Shown here one piece after another: positions 6,066 to 13,103 of a stretch of 64,000 nt of DNA. Positions within the stretch are counted from its first letter, which is position 1. Every line of letters begins with the position of its first letter. The stretch is from the NCBI GenBank assembly GCA_944387895.1, contig CALXGQ010000013.1, forward strand, positions 1 through 64,000, in the 5' to 3' direction. Source of the DNA: an uncultured Clostridia bacterium. Its GTDB lineage: Bacteria; Bacillota; Clostridia; Oscillospirales; QAKW01. The position numbers were made by a program, and so were the translations under genes. A model generated the notes under the pieces. That model was not told the origin of the DNA, ran no database searches, and saw nothing but the letters and a program-made list of their open reading frames with translations.

Positions 6066-6920
6066 ATGAGGAAAACAGCAGCCCTGCTGCTCAGCCTCTG
6101 CCTGCTGTGTATGATCCCGGCGACCGCCCTTGCGGCGCCCGTGACCCCGGATGATACCGGCGGCAGCGCTGAAATATCGGTTACGGTGCCGGACAGCCAC
6201 ACGCTGACGGTTCAGGCGGAGCATGCGCAGGTTTTCATCGAAAGCAGGGAGGCGGACTCCGTTGAGGTAAGCCGTCTTTCCGCGCCGCGGCTTCTGATCC
6301 GTCCTGAAAACGGGTACCGGGTGACCAAAGGCACCTTAAACGGCGTGGACATCACAGCGCAGGTAAAGGCCGGGTATTATACGTTGGAACCGGTCTATGA
6401 GGAAAAGACGTTGATAGTGGAAACGGAAAAAGCGCCCACGGATCCGGACAGCGGCCGCGACATCGGCGGCACGGTCAGGGATGAGGACGGCAATCCCGTC
6501 CCCGGTGCGGAGGTGGATATCGGCGGCAAGACGGGAATCACCGACGAGGACGGCAATTTTAAGATCGAGGACGTGCCGGACGGCCGCCATCCCGTGACGA
6601 TAACGGATGGGGACGGCAATATCATCGGCTACACCGAGGTGGAGATTGGCGGGGGCGATTCTGCGGACGTTGCGGAGGATTCCGGCGGCGGCTATACGAT
6701 AACGGCGCCGGAGCATACCGGTCTCGACATGGTGCTGACGGTAACTGCCGACGGCAGAATAACGGCGGATCAGCTCACCGGGGTTCAGGCGCCGTCGGGC
6801 GGCGGCTCTGCGGAAACCGGCGACAGCAGCCAGATGGCGCTGTGGCTGACGCTGCTGCTCGCGTCCGGCGCAGCTCTGGCCGGAACGGCGGCTTTCCTGC
6901 GGCAAAAAAAGAGCCTGTAA
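6066..6920 (+). CDS. Exported, C-terminally anchored protein with a carboxypeptidase-regulatory-like domain
   Basis: A clear signal peptide (RKTAALLLSLCLLCMIPATALA) opens this 284-residue protein. Residues about 134-190 form a carboxypeptidase regulatory-like fold (GTVRDEDGNPVPGAEVDIGG, then GITDEDGNFKIEDVPDG). The C-terminus has ETGDSSQ, a hydrophobic stretch and the basic end RQKKSL. This is laid out like a sortase signal, but there is no Leu-Pro before x-T-G, so it may simply be a membrane anchor. It probably sits on the cell surface. The ribosome site is GGGGG before the ATG. The specific role is unknown. The upstream gene is a probable remnant. Confidence 0.75.
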   Translation: MRKTAALLLSLCLLCMIPATALAAPVTPDDTGGSAEISVTVPDSHTLTVQAEHAQVFIESREADSVEVSRLSAPRLLIRPENGYRVTKGTLNGVDITAQVKAGYYTLEPVYEEKTLIVETEKAPTDPDSGRDIGGTVRDEDGNPVPGAEVDIGGKTGITDEDGNFKIEDVPDGRHPVTITDGDGNIIGYTEVEIGGGDSADVAEDSGGGYTITAPEHTGLDMVLTVTADGRITADQLTGVQAPSGGGSAETGDSSQMALWLTLLLASGAALAGTAAFLRQKKSL

Positions 6921-7080
6921 GAAGGGATAAGGACATCCGGGGCGGCGGAAGCTTTTTCCGCGCCGCCCCCGGTTGACGTCGGCCGATTTGCGTACGCCCG
7001 GCGGAACCGCCCATACGGCTCTGGTTTCACAGCGCCGGGCAGAGCTTTTCTGCCGGGCGCGAAAATATGGAAATCACCGC
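6921..7080. other. Two GC-rich hairpins without T tracts
   Basis: One hairpin at about 6938-6972 and a second at about 7032-7062 (CGCCGGGCAGA pairing with TCTGCCGGGCG-like sequence) lie between the surface-protein gene and the bidirectional terminator. No gene is seen. Confidence 0.5.
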
Positions 7081-7120
7081 AAAAAAGGCGGCAAGACAAA
7101 AAGGTCTTGCCGCCTTTTTT
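7081..7120. terminator. Bidirectional terminator between convergent genes
   Basis: A perfect 17-base-pair stem (7081-7097 with 7104-7120) with six A on one side and six T on the other. It serves both the surface-protein gene and the minus-strand biotin unit. Confidence 0.95.
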
Positions 7121-7152
7121 GCAGCCGCCGCGCCGGGCTGCCGGATCGGCGC

Positions 7153-8043
7153 TCAATCGCGCAGGAAGGGTTCTTTTACCTCCGCGCTGAGCAGATCCGC
7201 GTAGGCGTGCGGCTTGCGGTATGCGTTGCCCCAGGTTTCGTTTTTTCTGTAGGCGCGGATTTTTTCCATGTCAAATTCCGCTATCAGGATCTCTTCGGCA
7301 ATATCGGAGGCTTTCACGAGGGTGTTGTCTACCGCCTTCCCTTCGCCGTCGAAAACGATGGGAGAAAAAGCGCAGGAGGTTCCCCAGCCTTCCCCGGGAT
7401 AATTTGCCATGGCGATGCCGGTCATGTTCTCAAAGGCTCTTGCGCTTAGCTGGTTGATTCTTGCCGGATTCATGTCGCAGGCGTTGGGAACAAGGATGAT
7501 CTCCGCCCCTTTTAGCATCAGCACCCTTGCGCTTTCGGGAAATTCCCGGTCGTAGCAGATCATAACGCCCAGCTGCACGCCGTCGAACCGACATACCTCA
7601 AAGCCGCTCCCGCAGGCCAGCAGCTTTTCCAGCGAGAAATCACAGGTATGGACTTTGGCATATTCCAGAAGGATTTCCCCGGTTCTGCCGATCACAATGG
7701 CCGTGTTCTGCGGCTTGGCGGCGGTTTTGGAAAGATAGGTGGCGCAAATGCCGATGCCCAGCTCTTTTGCGGCGGCGCGGAGCGTCAGCACATATTCGCT
7801 GTTCCGCTCTATCGCGTTTTGCAGCCATGCGGTTCTCTCCCGATCGAAGCCGGGGCGCAGCGGGTCGTCAAAGGCGCCGTCGAAGGGCGGCGCATAGGCG
7901 TTGGACCACATTTCGGGGAAAAGAACGAGATCCGCGCCCATGGCGCCGGCCTGCCGGGCATATCGGAGCGCCAGCTGTAAATTGGCCTCCTTGTCGAGGG
8001 GGATCGCTTTATGCTGAACCAGAGCAACTTTAAAGACAGACAT
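7153..8043 (-). CDS. Carbon-nitrogen hydrolase (nitrilase superfamily)
   Basis: This 296-residue enzyme cleaves non-peptide C-N bonds, usually of amides. The Glu-Lys-Cys triad is visible: Glu in LVLFPEMWS (near residue 44), Lys in YAKVHTC, and Cys in GVMICYDREFPE. The start is the second of two ATG codons at 8043, seven bases after GGAGG; the long upstream extension has no support. It is the last gene of the birA-bioY-DUF1284 unit, 62 bases after DUF1284, and a terminator follows. Substrate is unknown. Its place suggests, without proving, hydrolysis of a biotin-related amide such as biotinamide or biocytin. Confidence 0.88.
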   Translation of the reverse strand: MSVFKVALVQHKAIPLDKEANLQLALRYARQAGAMGADLVLFPEMWSNAYAPPFDGAFDDPLRPGFDRERTAWLQNAIERNSEYVLTLRAAAKELGIGICATYLSKTAAKPQNTAIVIGRTGEILLEYAKVHTCDFSLEKLLACGSGFEVCRFDGVQLGVMICYDREFPESARVLMLKGAEIILVPNACDMNPARINQLSARAFENMTGIAMANYPGEGWGTSCAFSPIVFDGEGKAVDNTLVKASDIAEEILIAEFDMEKIRAYRKNETWGNAYRKPHAYADLLSAEVKEPFLRD

Positions 8044-8105
8044 GATCATTCCTCCATGATCCGATGGATTTTTCGTGGTTGTTCGGGCGCTTTGGCGCTC
8101 CGGCT

Positions 8106-8492
8106 TTATCTTCCGCCGCAGAGATCGTTCCACTGGCAATCTCCGCAGATCTCCGCCCTCCGCCCGGGCAGCAGGATCCGGCGCCGGATCTGCTCCTCAA
8201 AGGTTTTGAACCGCAGGACGGTTCCCGCCGGGATCCCGCACCGGAGCAGCACCTGCCGGTCGTATGCCAGAACCTTTTCCGCAGAGCGGCAGCGTCCGTT
8301 TCGATTGTTTGGGCAGCAGCCGCAAAGAACGTCGGTATGGTCGATAACGCGCACAAGCGGGTTTGCTTCCGTCTGCTTTTTGATGGCGGCCATGTTTGTG
8401 GTAAAGGCGGTGCTGTAGCCGGCGCCCCGGAAATAGCAGAGGCACATCCCGTGATGGGCGCGCAGGGGGAGGATGGGTTCTTGGGGATCCAT
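8106..8492 (-). CDS. DUF1284 cysteine-rich protein
   Basis: The 128-residue product has the DUF1284 start LRAHHGMCLCYFRGAGYS near residue 9. Its cysteine groups are CGCCPN with a following C at about 65-75, and ICGDCQWNDLC near the C-terminus. The spacing suggests an Fe-S or other metal site; this is inference. The ATG at 8492 comes two bases after the bioY stop, so translation is coupled to the biotin transporter. A much longer open frame runs on upstream, but there it is only a shadow of bioY. The family has no established function; the link to bioY and birA is the best clue in this genome. Confidence 0.8.
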   Translation of the reverse strand: MDPQEPILPLRAHHGMCLCYFRGAGYSTAFTTNMAAIKKQTEANPLVRVIDHTDVLCGCCPNNRNGRCRSAEKVLAYDRQVLLRCGIPAGTVLRFKTFEEQIRRRILLPGRRAEICGDCQWNDLCGGR

Positions 8493-8494
8493 CT

Positions 8495-9052
8495 TCAGCT
8501 CAGCCTGCAAGCGGCGGCCAGCTTGTTGCGCATCAGAAAGGCCAGCGCAAGCTTTACGCCGTCGGGAAGGAGATAGGGGATAACGCACCAGGTGAGGGCG
8601 GTCCAGAATCCGATCGCTCCGGTGGTGCGGGTATATACGGCGACATACCAGAGGGTGCCAAAGAGATAGCAGACCGGCAGCCCCAGCACCATGGAGAGGA
8701 GCAGAACCGTTCTGCTCCGGCCAAACAGCCGCTCCGCCGCCCACATCAGCAGGGCGGCCAGAAGAAACCCGGCCATATAGCCGCCGGTGCTGCCGATGAT
8801 GCAGCCGATCCCGCCGGAAAAGCCCGCAAAAACCGGCAGGCCGGCAGCGCCCAAAAGCAGATAGACCAAAACGGCGAGGCTTCCTTTTTTTCCGCCCAGC
8901 ACGCCGACGGTCAGAAAAACGCCGAAGGTTTGCAGGGTGAAGGGAACGGCGGCGGGGATGGAGATCCAGGAGCAAACGGCCATAACGGCGGTAAAAAGCG
9001 CGATCCGCGCCAGATCGGCGGTGTTCAGTTTCTGTTTTATTGCGGTTTCCAT
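8495..9052 (-). CDS. bioY: BioY biotin transporter, substrate-binding subunit
   Basis: This 185-residue membrane protein is the S component of an ECF transporter (or acts alone) in biotin uptake. It shows the BioY pattern: FTLQTFGVFLTVGVLGGKKG near residue 38, then GLPVFAGFSGGIGCIIGSTGGY with the glycine-rich biotin-site region, and about six hydrophobic segments. It is 38 bases downstream of birA and directly upstream of DUF1284, so uptake, sensing and ligation of biotin are controlled together. No ecfA or ecfT genes are nearby. No biotin synthesis genes occur in the window, which fits a scavenging organism but does not prove it. Confidence 0.95.
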   Translation of the reverse strand: METAIKQKLNTADLARIALFTAVMAVCSWISIPAAVPFTLQTFGVFLTVGVLGGKKGSLAVLVYLLLGAAGLPVFAGFSGGIGCIIGSTGGYMAGFLLAALLMWAAERLFGRSRTVLLLSMVLGLPVCYLFGTLWYVAVYTRTTGAIGFWTALTWCVIPYLLPDGVKLALAFLMRNKLAAACRLS

Positions 9053-9090
9053 TTTGTTCTCCTATGGAATATTTTATGGTTCAGGGGGAT

Positions 9091-10068
9091 TCAGGAAAGA
9101 GCGGTGGAGATTTCGCCGGAAGAAAGCTTTTCCTGCCTGCCGTCGGGGTAGCGGACGATAAGGTGGCAGGCGTCGTCGATATCCAGGGCGACGGCTTTTT
9201 CGGCGCCGTCGGGGCGCAGGACGCGGATCTCCTTTCCGATAACAAGGCTGCGCCGCCGGTACTGATCGGCGATCCGCTCCGGCTGCGGCGCGGCATAGCT
9301 GGCCATGAACCGGTTGAGAAAGGCTGCGGCAAGCCGGTTTTTCCCGTCGCTGATCCGCTCGGGGAAAAGGGTGCCGGCTCGATCCTGCAGGGAATCGGGA
9401 AACCCTTCCTCCGGCGGAGCCATGTTGACGCCGATGCCCAGAACGGCGTATTCCAGCCCGCCGCTCTCCAGATCGTAGGCGGCTTCGGTGAGGATCCCGC
9501 AGACCTTTTTACCGCCGACATAAATATCGTTGACCCATTTGATCTGCGCCCTTTCGCTCCCGATGGATTCTATCGCTTCGCATACCGCAACGGCGGCCAT
9601 CGTCGTCAGCCCGACTGCCTGCTCCGCGGTAAACTGCGCGGGGCGAAGCAGAACGCTCAGGTAAAGCCCGGTATCCGGCGGAGAAAAGAAGCTGCGGCCG
9701 CGCCGCCCTTTTCCGCCGGTCTGTTCGTTCGCGGCGGCAATATAGCCCTCCGGTGCCTGCTGCGCCGCCTTTTCCCGCACCGCGTCGTTGGTGGAGGGAA
9801 GCACCGGGAACACTTCGATATCCAGCCCGCCCAGCTTCGGATCCAGATATTTCCGGATCCCCTGAGCGGATAAAATGTCGGTATTTTCAGGGAGGCAGTA
9901 GCCCCTGTTTGGGGTGGAGCGGATCGGAAACCCATCTTCCCGCAACCCGTTCACGGCCTTCCATACCGCCGTTCGGGAAACGGAAAGCCGGCCGGCCAGC
10001 TCCTGCCCGGAAAGATAAGCGCCCTTGTTGTCTTCAAAAAGCGCCAGCAGTTCCTCTTTTGTTCCCAT
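9091..10068 (-). CDS. birA: Bifunctional biotin-protein ligase / biotin repressor
   Basis: The enzyme attaches biotin to carboxylases and, as biotinyl-AMP complex, represses transcription. Residues 1-60 form the winged helix-turn-helix (LSGQELAGRLSVSRTAVWKA). The ligase domain has the adenylate loop GGKGRRGRS at 118-126 and KWVNDIYV near 180, where Lys contacts biotin. The length of 325 residues is normal for the two-domain type. A matching operator lies directly upstream at 10112-10149, so the gene represses itself and the following bioY. The ATG at 10068 has a GGAGG ribosome site. Confidence 0.96.
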   Translation of the reverse strand: MGTKEELLALFEDNKGAYLSGQELAGRLSVSRTAVWKAVNGLREDGFPIRSTPNRGYCLPENTDILSAQGIRKYLDPKLGGLDIEVFPVLPSTNDAVREKAAQQAPEGYIAAANEQTGGKGRRGRSFFSPPDTGLYLSVLLRPAQFTAEQAVGLTTMAAVAVCEAIESIGSERAQIKWVNDIYVGGKKVCGILTEAAYDLESGGLEYAVLGIGVNMAPPEEGFPDSLQDRAGTLFPERISDGKNRLAAAFLNRFMASYAAPQPERIADQYRRRSLVIGKEIRVLRPDGAEKAVALDIDDACHLIVRYPDGRQEKLSSGEISTALS

Positions 10069-10092
10069 CTCGTCACCTCCGTGCTGGTTATC

Positions 10093-10121
10093 AGTATAAA
10101 ACTCTGCTCTCTAATTGTCAA
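10093..10121 (-). promoter_or_regulatory. Promoter of the birA-bioY unit
   Basis: On the minus strand TTGACA (10121-10116), a 17-base spacer and TATACT (10098-10093). The -35 box lies inside one arm of the BirA operator. Confidence 0.85.
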
Positions 10122-10149
10122 CTGTTTTTTAAATTCAGGTTGACAATTA
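10112..10149. promoter_or_regulatory. BirA operator
   Basis: A perfect 11-base inverted repeat, TAATTGTCAAC (10112-10122) and GTTGACAATTA (10139-10149), is separated by 16 bases. This matches the known BirA site design TTGT-AACC-N15/16-GGTT-ACAA. It covers the -35 box of the birA promoter, so biotin-loaded BirA would block its own unit. Confidence 0.88.
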
Positions 10150-10323: not shown

Positions 10324-10590
10324 ATGGAAACAAGAATAGCGGTCATCGCGATCGTTGTTGAAAATCTGGATGCGGTGGAGGAGCTCAACGGGCTGCTGCA
10401 TCAGTACGGCGGGTATATCATCGGCCGGATGGGGCTGCCCTATCGGAAGGGCAATATCAATATTCTCAGCGTTGCAGTCGACGCGCCGCAGGACGTCATC
10501 AGCACCCTTTCGGGCAAGATCGGCAAGCTCAGCGGCGTAAGCGCCAAAACCGCCTATTCCAATATCGTATATCAAACAGAGGATGAATAG
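10324..10590 (+). CDS. TM1266-type iron-only hydrogenase system putative regulator
   Basis: This 88-residue protein resembles the small ACT/NikR-C-like TM1266 family found beside [FeFe]-hydrogenase maturation genes. It starts TRIAVIAIVVENLDAVEELN, has a central GRMGLPYRKGNINILSVAVD strand pair, and ends with KTAYSN. The family is proposed to regulate the hydrogenase system but the mechanism is not established; it has no DNA-binding domain of its own. It overlaps hydE by eight bases, so the two are translationally coupled. It is the first gene after a terminator-like leader hairpin. Confidence 0.85.
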   Translation: METRIAVIAIVVENLDAVEELNGLLHQYGGYIIGRMGLPYRKGNINILSVAVDAPQDVISTLSGKIGKLSGVSAKTAYSNIVYQTEDE

Positions 10591-11668
10591 GTTTTTCCTG
10601 CTGGCCGACCGGCTGGAGAAGGAGCACCGCCTTGCCCCGGAGGAGTACCGGTATCTTCTGGATCACCGCACCGCCGAAACGGCGGAATACCTTGCCGGGA
10701 AGGCAAGGGCGGTGCGGGAACGGGTCTACGGCAGGGACGTTTATATCCGCGGCCTGATTGAGATCAGCAACATCTGTAAAAACGATTGCTTTTACTGCGG
10801 AATCCGCAGAAGCAATCATCGCTGCCGCCGCTACCGGCTGACGGAGGAGGAGATCCTCTCCTGCTGCGCGGAGGGCTATGCGCTGGGCTTTCGCACCTTT
10901 GTTTTGCAGGGGGGCGAGGATCCCTATTTTACCGACGCGGTGCTCTGCCCGCTTATCGGCAAGATCAAGGCGTCCTGCCCCGGATGCGCGGTCACCCTTT
11001 CGCTGGGCGAGCGGTCAAAAGCCAGCTATCAGGCGCTGCGCGACGCAGGGGCGGATCGGTATCTTCTGCGGCATGAAACGGCGGATCAGGCTCATTATGA
11101 ACGGCTGCATCCGGCGGAAATGTCCTATGAGAACCGGATGCGCTGCCTTGAGGATCTGCGGGCGGCCGGTTATCAGGTGGGCTGCGGCTTCATGGTCGGC
11201 TCTCCCGGCCAGACGCCGGAAAACATCGTGGCGGATCTGAAGTTTATCGAGGGCTTTGCGCCGGAAATGTGCGGCATCGGGCCTTTTATCCCGCATAACG
11301 CCACCCCCTTTGCCGATTTTCCCGCCGGCTCCTTCAGGCTGACGCTCTTTCTGCTCTCCCTCCTGCGGCTGATCCACCCCGGCCTGCTTCTGCCCGCCAC
11401 AACGGCGCTCGGCACCATTCATCCCCGGGGCAGGGAGCTGGGGATCCTGGCCGGCGCCAATGTGGTGATGCCGAATCTTTCGCCGGTTTCTGTCCGGAAA
11501 AAGTATGAGCTTTATAACAACAAGCTCTGCACCGGGGAAGAATCGGCGCAGAGTCTGGTGGATCTGGCGCGGCGCATGGAAGAGATCGGATACCGCGTTG
11601 TCACCGCCCGGGGCGACGCCGTCAAGTTCAATGAAAAAGTAGAGGTTGATCAACATGAAACATTATGA
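10583..11668 (+). CDS. hydE: [FeFe]-hydrogenase H-cluster radical SAM maturase HydE
   Basis: HydE is a radical SAM enzyme that takes part in building the 2Fe subcluster of [FeFe] hydrogenase. The radical SAM cluster motif CxxxCxxC is at Cys65, Cys69 and Cys72 (ICKNDCFYCGIR). The following GGEDPYF and ETADQAHYERLHP segments are typical of HydE/BioB-like barrels. At 361 residues it is full length. It overlaps the regulator upstream and hydG downstream. No hydrogenase structural gene is in the window. Confidence 0.95.
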   Translation: MNRFFLLADRLEKEHRLAPEEYRYLLDHRTAETAEYLAGKARAVRERVYGRDVYIRGLIEISNICKNDCFYCGIRRSNHRCRRYRLTEEEILSCCAEGYALGFRTFVLQGGEDPYFTDAVLCPLIGKIKASCPGCAVTLSLGERSKASYQALRDAGADRYLLRHETADQAHYERLHPAEMSYENRMRCLEDLRAAGYQVGCGFMVGSPGQTPENIVADLKFIEGFAPEMCGIGPFIPHNATPFADFPAGSFRLTLFLLSLLRLIHPGLLLPATTALGTIHPRGRELGILAGANVVMPNLSPVSVRKKYELYNNKLCTGEESAQSLVDLARRMEEIGYRVVTARGDAVKFNEKVEVDQHETL

Positions 11669-13103
11669 TGCCCGCTCGATGAAAGCGGAGGAATTTATTT
11701 CCCATGAGGAGATTTTGGAAACGATCCGGTATGCGGAGGAAAATAAGCATAATATCCCGCTGATCGATAGCCTTCTGGAAAAGGCGCGTCCGAAAAAAAC
11801 CGGAAACGGCGTGCGCTGCGCCGGCCTCAGCCACCGGGAAGCCTCGGTGCTGCTGGCCTGCGATCTGCCGGAGAAGGTACAGGAGATGTATAAGCTGGCG
11901 GAGGAGATCAAGCTGGCTTTTTACGGCAACCGCATCGTCATGTTTGCGCCGCTGTATCTGTCCAATTACTGCGTAAACGGGTGCGTATACTGCCCTTATC
12001 ATCTGAAAAACAAGCATATCGCGCGCAAAAAGCTGACCCAGGAAGAGGTGCGCCGCGAGGTGATCGCCCTGCAGGATATGGGTCATAAGCGGCTGGCGAT
12101 CGAGGCCGGGGAGGATCCGGTCCATAATCCGATCGAATACATCCTGGAATGCATCAAAACCATTTACAGCATTCACCATAAAAACGGCGCGATCCGTCGG
12201 GTGAACGTCAACATAGCGGCAACAACGGTGGAGAACTACCGCAAGCTGAAGGAAGCCGGGATCGGAACCTACATCCTGTTTCAGGAAACCTATAATAAAG
12301 AGAGCTATCTGGAGCTGCATCCCACCGGCCCGAAGCACGACTACGCCTATCATACCGAAGCAATGGATCGGGCGATGGAAGGCGGGATCGACGACGTGGG
12401 TCTGGGCGTTTTATTCGGGCTGGAGGGCTATCAGTATGAGTTTGCGGGGCTGCTGATGCACGCGGAGCATCTGGAAGCGGTGCACGGCGTTGGCCCCCAT
12501 ACCATCAGCGTGCCGCGGATCAAGCGGGCGGACGACATCGATCCCGGCGTTTTCGACAACGGCGTGCCGGACGATATTTTTGCCAAGATCATCGCCTGTA
12601 TCCGCATCGCCGTTCCCTATACCGGCATGATCATCTCGACCCGTGAAAGCGAGCAGGTGCGCGCGCGGGCGCTGGATCTGGGGATCTCCCAGATCAGCGG
12701 CGCTTCCCGGACGTCGGTGGGCGGATATGCCGAAGAGGAACGCCCTCACGATACGGAGCAGTTTGACGTTTCGGATCAACGCACGCTGGACGAAGTGGTG
12801 CAATGGCTGATGAAGACCGGCTATATCCCCTCCTTCTGCACCGCCTGCTATCGCGAGGGCAGAACCGGAGATCGATTCATGTCCCTTTGCAAAACCGGGC
12901 AGATCCTCAATTGCTGCCATCCCAACGCACTGATGACGCTGAGCGAGTATCTGGTCGACTATGCAAGCCCGGAAACGCAGAAAATCGGCTTTGCGCTGAT
13001 CGAGCGCGAGCTGGAGAAGATCCCCGGGGAAAAGGTGCGGAAAATAGCGCGGGAAAACGTGGCGGCGATCCAAAATTCCGACCGCCGGGATTTCCGGTTT
13101 TAA
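11655..13103 (+). CDS. hydG: [FeFe]-hydrogenase maturase HydG (tyrosine lyase)
   Basis: HydG cleaves tyrosine to give the CO and cyanide ligands of the H cluster. The radical SAM motif CxxxCxxC is at about Cys106, Cys110 and Cys113 (NYCVNGCVYCPYH). The C-terminal auxiliary cluster motif includes SFCTACYREGRTGD and a further Cys in CCHPNAL. The ATG at 11655 is preferred to an upstream TTG at 11646 because AGAGG lies nine bases before it. It overlaps hydE by 14 bases. At 482 residues it has normal length, and it is distinguished from ThiH by the C-terminal cysteines. Confidence 0.95.
   Translation: MKHYDARSMKAEEFISHEEILETIRYAEENKHNIPLIDSLLEKARPKKTGNGVRCAGLSHREASVLLACDLPEKVQEMYKLAEEIKLAFYGNRIVMFAPLYLSNYCVNGCVYCPYHLKNKHIARKKLTQEEVRREVIALQDMGHKRLAIEAGEDPVHNPIEYILECIKTIYSIHHKNGAIRRVNVNIAATTVENYRKLKEAGIGTYILFQETYNKESYLELHPTGPKHDYAYHTEAMDRAMEGGIDDVGLGVLFGLEGYQYEFAGLLMHAEHLEAVHGVGPHTISVPRIKRADDIDPGVFDNGVPDDIFAKIIACIRIAVPYTGMIISTRESEQVRARALDLGISQISGASRTSVGGYAEEERPHDTEQFDVSDQRTLDEVVQWLMKTGYIPSFCTACYREGRTGDRFMSLCKTGQILNCCHPNALMTLSEYLVDYASPETQKIGFALIERELEKIPGEKVRKIARENVAAIQNSDRRDFRF

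Follow-up and report, generated by a model that had tools for sequence, protein, structure and literature searches.

The stretch of DNA analysed here (64,000 nucleotides (nt) of contig CALXGQ010000013.1 from an uncultured Clostridia bacterium; hereafter the window) carries a unit of four genes, namely birA, bioY, a DUF1284 gene and a gene of the nitrilase superfamily (Table 1). The main subject of the current study is the DUF1284 protein, a member of Pfam family PF06935, which is described just as a family of unknown function; it probably acts in the uptake or recycling of biotin by microbes, as a component so far overlooked. The protein matched the whole PF06935 profile (positions 1-102 of 102) with 90.9 bits (gathering cut-off 25). 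The window BirA scored 146.8 bits with TIGR00121 (cut-off 83.1), and its N-terminal helix-turn-helix (HTH) part and both ligase domains, detected with Pfam, place it in group II. The genes are closely spaced, with 38 nt between birA and bioY, 2 nt between bioY and the DUF1284 gene (the stop and start codons form the junction TGA-AG-ATG), and 62 nt, carrying a GGAGG site, between the DUF1284 gene and the nitrilase gene.

Table 1. Genes and regulatory features of the biotin unit in the window.
Feature	Coordinates	Strand	Description	Evidence
birA	9091-10068	-	biotin protein ligase, N-terminal HTH (group II repressor-ligase)	Pfam HTH_11 PF08279, BPL_LplA_LipB PF03099, BPL_C PF02237
bioY	8495-9052	-	S component of an energy-coupling factor (ECF) biotin transporter	Pfam PF02632, E 8.5e-38, 129.9 bits, cut-off 25
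DUF1284 gene	8106-8492	-	128 aa, 10 Cys	Pfam PF06935, E 7.3e-26
nitrilase gene	7153-8043	-	carbon-nitrogen hydrolase (nitrilase superfamily), probably a passenger	Pfam PF00795, E 1.2e-38, 133.3 bits
BirA-type operator	10115-10146	.	perfect 8+8 inverted repeat, 16-nt spacer	0 mismatches
promoter	10093-10121	-	sigma-70-type, TTGACA-17-TATACT; -35 box inside operator	11/12 matches
terminator	about 7076-7125	.	bidirectional, intrinsic, closing the unit	fold -38.9 kcal/mol, z -7.69

The operator, TTGTCAAC-N16-GTTGACAA, overlaps the -35 box of the minus-strand promoter, as in operators of the BirA regulon. At up to three mismatches the motif was matched once in the window (0.08 expected), and its looser form, TTGTNAAC-N12-18-GTTNACAA, has a single occurrence in the entire 1.69 Mb genome. 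An earlier note on this DNA had claimed a perfect BirA operator over the -35 box and a unit birA-bioY-DUF1284-nitrilase without internal terminator, and both claims were borne out: there is no other operator match in the genome, the gene families were confirmed with Pfam, and terminator-like matches within the unit genes were at noise level (8 found, 5.5 expected). A promoter between bioY and the nitrilase gene, which that note had named, along with the lack of a recurring neighbourhood, as refuting its reading, was looked for, and the promoter scan gave no promoter-like site from birA to the start of the nitrilase gene. A weak site (9/12) lay within the nitrilase gene, and two sites were found in total against 1.3 expected. 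The hairpin downstream of the nitrilase gene, which was detected by folding and is absent from the pattern scan output, is very stable and flanked by A and T runs. The natural reading is that the four genes would form one transcript.

Bacillus subtilis BirA is described as binding inverted repeats upstream of biotin and bioY-like genes, and a half-site primer used there contains GGTTAACAA (PMC4016012). When all fetched loci (1.87 Mb, partly redundant, duplicates counted) were scanned for the operator motif at up to one mismatch, 57 sites were found in 56 loci, compared with one in sequence shuffled base by base. Each listed site lies within ~320 nt upstream of, or a few bases into, a bioY, birA or DUF1284 frame. 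Because the motif precedes such frames in many loci and B. subtilis BirA sites are known, the operator assignment is strong, and BirA is predicted to bind here. In one genome (G499) the DUF1284 gene lies apart from bioY and has its own perfect operator directly before it; the nearby bioY has another.

BioR-type boxes, matched with what we take to be the BioR consensus, were found upstream of bioY-DUF1284 in two alphaproteobacterial loci (L031 and L223), i.e. two in 15 upstream regions against 0.04 expected. One of the two, on a Rhodovulum plasmid, has a GntR-family regulator gene followed by bioY-DUF1284, with the box before bioY. Since both BirA operators and BioR-type boxes occur at the bioY-DUF1284 pair, two unrelated biotin regulators (BirA and BioR) appear to control it.

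A survey of other genomes, as the earlier note had suggested, revealed a recurring neighbourhood of DUF1284 with bioY or birA across many phyla and both domains. In the class draw, 24 of 391 genomes possessed DUF1284, and among the 23 other than the window genome 13 had BioY or BirA adjoining, i.e. BioY directly upstream in 12 and birA alone in one (the simple open-frame picker used for gene calling missed bioY in G465, hence 12 instead of 11 and one instead of two). In the phylum draw, which shares one genome with the class draw, 45 of 299 genomes were positive; 41 of the 44 others were examined (the truncated matches of G033, G098 and G260 were left out), and 19 of these were linked, with BioY directly upstream in 11, a same-strand BioY nearby in four and birA alone in four. 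DUF1284 was found in 17 of 337 alphaproteobacterial genomes (behind BioY in 10, no local link in seven), in three of 301 Chloroflexota genomes (one following BioY) and in 103 of 151 Methanobacteriota genomes, where BioY preceded it in 29 of the 30 loci examined, these being the best-scoring 30 of the 103. All three plasmid matches were bioY-DUF1284 pairs from Rhodobacterales. Among 80 named loci (the best 80 of 267 relatives, recovered with patterns from one sub-group, so that the sample is not random), a same-strand BioY was present within 3 kb in 44 and birA alone in three. BioY directly upstream was seen there in Chloroflexota, Actinomycetota, Planctomycetota, Omnitrophota, Armatimonadota, Acidobacteriota, Bacteroidales, Clostridia and relatives of Methanobrevibacter.

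Among 1061 neighbour proteins, BioY was by far the commonest (72 loci, in 53 of them same-strand and directly upstream), followed by BirA (26 loci), ECF T-type (23) and ECF A-type (ATPase; 12) proteins and a pyruvate:ferredoxin oxidoreductase-like family (11, assigned by eye, with Thermoanaerobacter loci among them). Some loci enter these counts more than once, in a short and a long version, and the ECF neighbours were identified by size, order and eye (in L032 by annotation). The gene orders seen were bioY-DUF1284, birA-bioY-DUF1284, birA-DUF1284-bioY, DUF1284-birA and bioY-ECF-ECF-DUF1284. The junctions are tight, with 57 of 88 non-redundant pairs having 30 nt or less between the end of BioY and the codon of the conserved R-x-H-H. 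Biotin-linked members occur in many parts of the DUF1284 tree, where the label changes 23 times (bootstrap range 22-25). In several genomes and loci (G587, L026/L028/L030/L084, L111, L118 and L174) birA without bioY adjoins DUF1284, an arrangement suggesting that what the neighbourhoods share is biotin itself and not the transporter.

Other neighbours were also observed. In Thermoanaerobacter-type genomes (L064, L065, L120-L132) DUF1284 directly follows the pyruvate:ferredoxin oxidoreductase-like gene, not bioY. In Methanobacteriota (L229-L258) bioY-DUF1284 is often followed by an ATP-grasp or iron-sulfur (Fe-S) aldo/keto reductase-like protein, a possible third partner (judged by eye, few cases), and in L089-L095, L106 and L133 a type III pantothenate kinase-like gene (by eye) follows birA-bioY-DUF1284.

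Fourteen positions were invariant in 69 DUF1284 sequences (R11, H13, H14, C17, G23, G25, Y26, D54, C57, C68, D78, C116, C119 and W121). They include the motif R-x-H-H-x-x-C and five cysteines; C60 and C125 were conserved at 90% or more. Two Rhodobacterales sequences have an altered CxxCP motif with other Cys/His residues close by, which fits a shifting metal site and proves nothing. The AlphaFold model of the window protein is confident (predicted local distance difference test score 90.3, predicted template-modelling score 0.83). A search of the PDB for fold relatives gave no clear match (best Foldseek E 1.1, best VIA Z 2.4), a result that is no proof of a new fold. The sequence search gave no convincing match either; distant family matches were scattered and weak and were taken as chance. 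One Bacillota metagenome-assembled genome (L179:5974-6804) encodes DUF1284 apparently fused to a NusB-like C-terminal part (by eye), possibly a sequencing or assembly effect.

A role of DUF1284 in biotin uptake or salvage (the earlier note had suggested salvage, from the coupling to bioY) is well supported, though not proven, by the recurring bioY/birA neighbourhood, the BirA operators and the BioR-type boxes. As to its nature, our tentative preference, at somewhat less than even confidence, is a biotin-supply operon with DUF1284 as a vitamer-processing metal or Fe-S protein and the nitrilase as a passenger. BirA is predicted to repress this operon when biotinyl-AMP is plentiful, and BioY would import biotin or related compounds. 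The DUF1284 protein would be made in step with BioY through the nearly overlapping start, and from its residues may be a small cytoplasmic protein that binds a metal or an Fe-S cluster. It would act on compounds imported by BioY, most likely converting an unusable vitamer to free biotin, with biotin sulfoxide or a biotin amide such as biocytin as guessed substrates; the freed biotin would then be loaded on carboxylases by BirA. The more specific proposal, that DUF1284 is a dedicated biotin-vitamer salvage enzyme, having a fold without clear PDB match, in auxotrophs and prototrophs across bacteria and methanogens, is more doubtful. A vitamer-processing enzyme is favoured, with a non-catalytic handling protein close behind, because of the conserved Cys/His residues, the absence of BioB from most of the genomes and the birA-only neighbourhoods.

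Several observations weigh against this explanation. No local biotin link was seen in 10 of 23 class, 22 of 41 phylum and 33 of 80 named-genome loci, and one 17-row DUF1284 clade in a quick tree is without any such link; the association with biotin genes can thus not be called exclusive in the phylum, where about half of the members lack a local link. BioY is near-universal in the phylum with or without DUF1284 (72 of 80 genomes), and its presence was uninformative as a test of dependence (BioY occurs in 36 of 39 genomes with DUF1284, which were picked with a preference for unlinked members, and in 36 of the 41 that lack it). DUF1284 is missing from all 11 further genomes of the family, of which the six that were checked have bioY, so DUF1284 is dispensable for ordinary biotin uptake. 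Moreover, neither a fold nor a distant family match from the sequence, Foldseek and VIA searches points to its chemistry.

The role of DUF1284 may instead be non-catalytic, i.e. that of a carrier, store or sensor of biotin between BioY and BirA, or of an accessory regulator of the ECF transporter, an explanation that we regard with the same reserve as the dedicated enzyme. The tight gene coupling and the position of DUF1284 beside bioY and/or birA, and also beside ECF genes, are consistent with it. Furthermore, the BioY tree does not separate linked from unlinked proteins (12 changes; a single unlinked clade was rejected, approximately unbiased test p 0.0001) and thus gives no hint of a BioY class with a substrate of its own. 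However, the conserved His-His-Cys and six further conserved Cys positions would exceed the needs of a simple carrier, and no known binding fold was found with Foldseek or VIA. Less likely, DUF1284 would have a general function (redox or metal) with no relation to biotin and be near bioY through operon hitchhiking only; the unlinked half of the phylum members and the clade without biotin neighbours would fit this, but the pairing recurs in bacteria and archaea in differing surroundings, with BirA and BioR-type signals.

The nitrilase belongs to the CN_hydrolase family and has the candidate catalytic residues Glu44-Lys130-Cys163; the triad of the carbon-nitrogen hydrolase superfamily is Glu-Lys-Cys. 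Mammalian biotinidase is an enzyme of the nitrilase superfamily, and the gene is co-directional with DUF1284, 62 nt downstream of it with no promoter found between, all of which would fit a bacterial biotinidase, releasing biotin from an amide as the earlier note had proposed, with DUF1284 as helper. We consider this very unlikely. Among 242 fetched DUF1284 loci (partly redundant), nitrilase-family frames occurred in only two places besides the window unit, one three genes from an unlinked DUF1284 (L077) and the other a 581-aa frame on the opposite strand (L114). As no other fetched DUF1284 or bioY unit contains a nitrilase, it was rejected as a recurring biotin gene. Homologues exist in six of 12 genomes of the family (window genome included), and those elsewhere (main matches, 47-51% identity) lie beside unrelated genes, by eye prolyl-tRNA synthetase-like, acetyltransferase-like and rubrerythrin-like frames. 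The window nitrilase resembles N-carbamoylputrescine amidase-type and Nit2-type enzymes among its matches, and is far below the cut-offs of named amidases (96.5 bits with TIGR03381, N-carbamoylputrescine amidase, equivalog cut-off 410.25). In the PDB it is closest to general nitrilases/amidases and to N-carbamoylputrescine amidohydrolase, and none of the 26 PDB sequences matching at E 1e-10 is named biotinidase or pantetheinase. It is best read as probably an ordinary amidase, co-transcribed as a passenger. The earlier interpretation is therefore retained for DUF1284, whose link to biotin genes recurs together with BirA operators and BioR-type boxes, and not for the nitrilase, whose linkage does not recur and whose homologues adjoin unrelated genes.

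Least probable of all is that DUF1284, a Cys-rich protein adjoining biotin genes, aids biotin synthase (BioB) by supplying sulfur or Fe-S clusters, or replaces it on imported dethiobiotin, since DUF1284 lacks a conserved CxxxCxxC radical S-adenosylmethionine (SAM) motif and the distribution of BioB disfavours a partnership: of 80 genomes scanned, comprising 76 with DUF1284 and four family members without (some species twice), just 22 had a BioB above the cut-off, compared with four of 35 genomes without DUF1284 (a set not matched by taxon), which shows no tight coupling, and BioB is absent from the window genome (100% complete), where the best match, with 73.9 bits, was a radical SAM gene at 10637-11470. 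Because BioB is absent from this genome and from the majority of those with DUF1284 that were scanned, DUF1284 is unlikely to take part in biotin synthesis.

The biotin unit was probably acquired or replaced horizontally (xenologous replacement), judging from trees and gene content. Four congeners (L197-L200) have birA-bioY with a birA that lacks the HTH part in the frames read (one of which reaches the edge of the sequence slice), no operator match and no DUF1284. In the tree, the window DUF1284 pairs with that of G491 from another family (50% identity, support 100/80), and the window BioY groups near G491, not with its congeners. A special BioY clade partnered with DUF1284 was not found, linked and unlinked labels being mixed in the BioY tree.

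BirA-controlled bioY units of Bacillota, such as B. subtilis yuiG and yhfUTS and Staphylococcus aureus bioY, share with the window unit a group II BirA with HTH part, an inverted-repeat operator of the GTTAACAA type and bioY as target (PMC4016012, PMC6391492). Unlike in these, the window birA lies within its own regulated unit, and DUF1284 and nitrilase genes follow bioY. The BioR-controlled genes of Alphaproteobacteria, e.g. Paracoccus denitrificans bioYB2, include a bioY under a GntR-family biotin regulator, which resembles the arrangement of regulator gene, BioR-type box and bioY on the Rhodovulum plasmid; the gene described beside bioY is bioB and not DUF1284 (PMC4554459). The bioMNY and other ECF biotin transporters combine bioY with ECF A- and T-type genes, as also seen adjoining DUF1284 in several loci. 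To our knowledge, no description of an ECF transporter includes DUF1284. None of the 5.39 million open-access papers searched mentions DUF1284, COG3543 or PF06935, and RegPrecise or subscription papers may already list it as a putative target of BirA or BioR; the new content is the biotin link of the PF06935 family.

Gut and anaerobic communities are shaped by biotin exchange. In a 2019 vitamin catalogue, B1, B3 and B6 have named salvage enzymes; the B7 entries in its table are, apart from biosynthesis enzymes and BirA, transporters only, namely BioY and YigM (PMC6593275). A direct candidate to fill this gap is DUF1284, which is conserved and apparently biotin-regulated next to bioY in both domains; as a salvage enzyme it would represent a step missing from current B7 salvage maps.

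On the plus strand, a frame at 6066-6920 may encode a surface protein, since its N-terminus is signal-like and its C-terminus carries a membrane anchor. Divergent from the biotin unit and beginning just beyond its promoter is an [FeFe]-hydrogenase maturation cluster (10324-13103, plus strand), which consists of a TM1266-type regulator followed by two radical SAM genes that we take to be HydE- and HydG-like.

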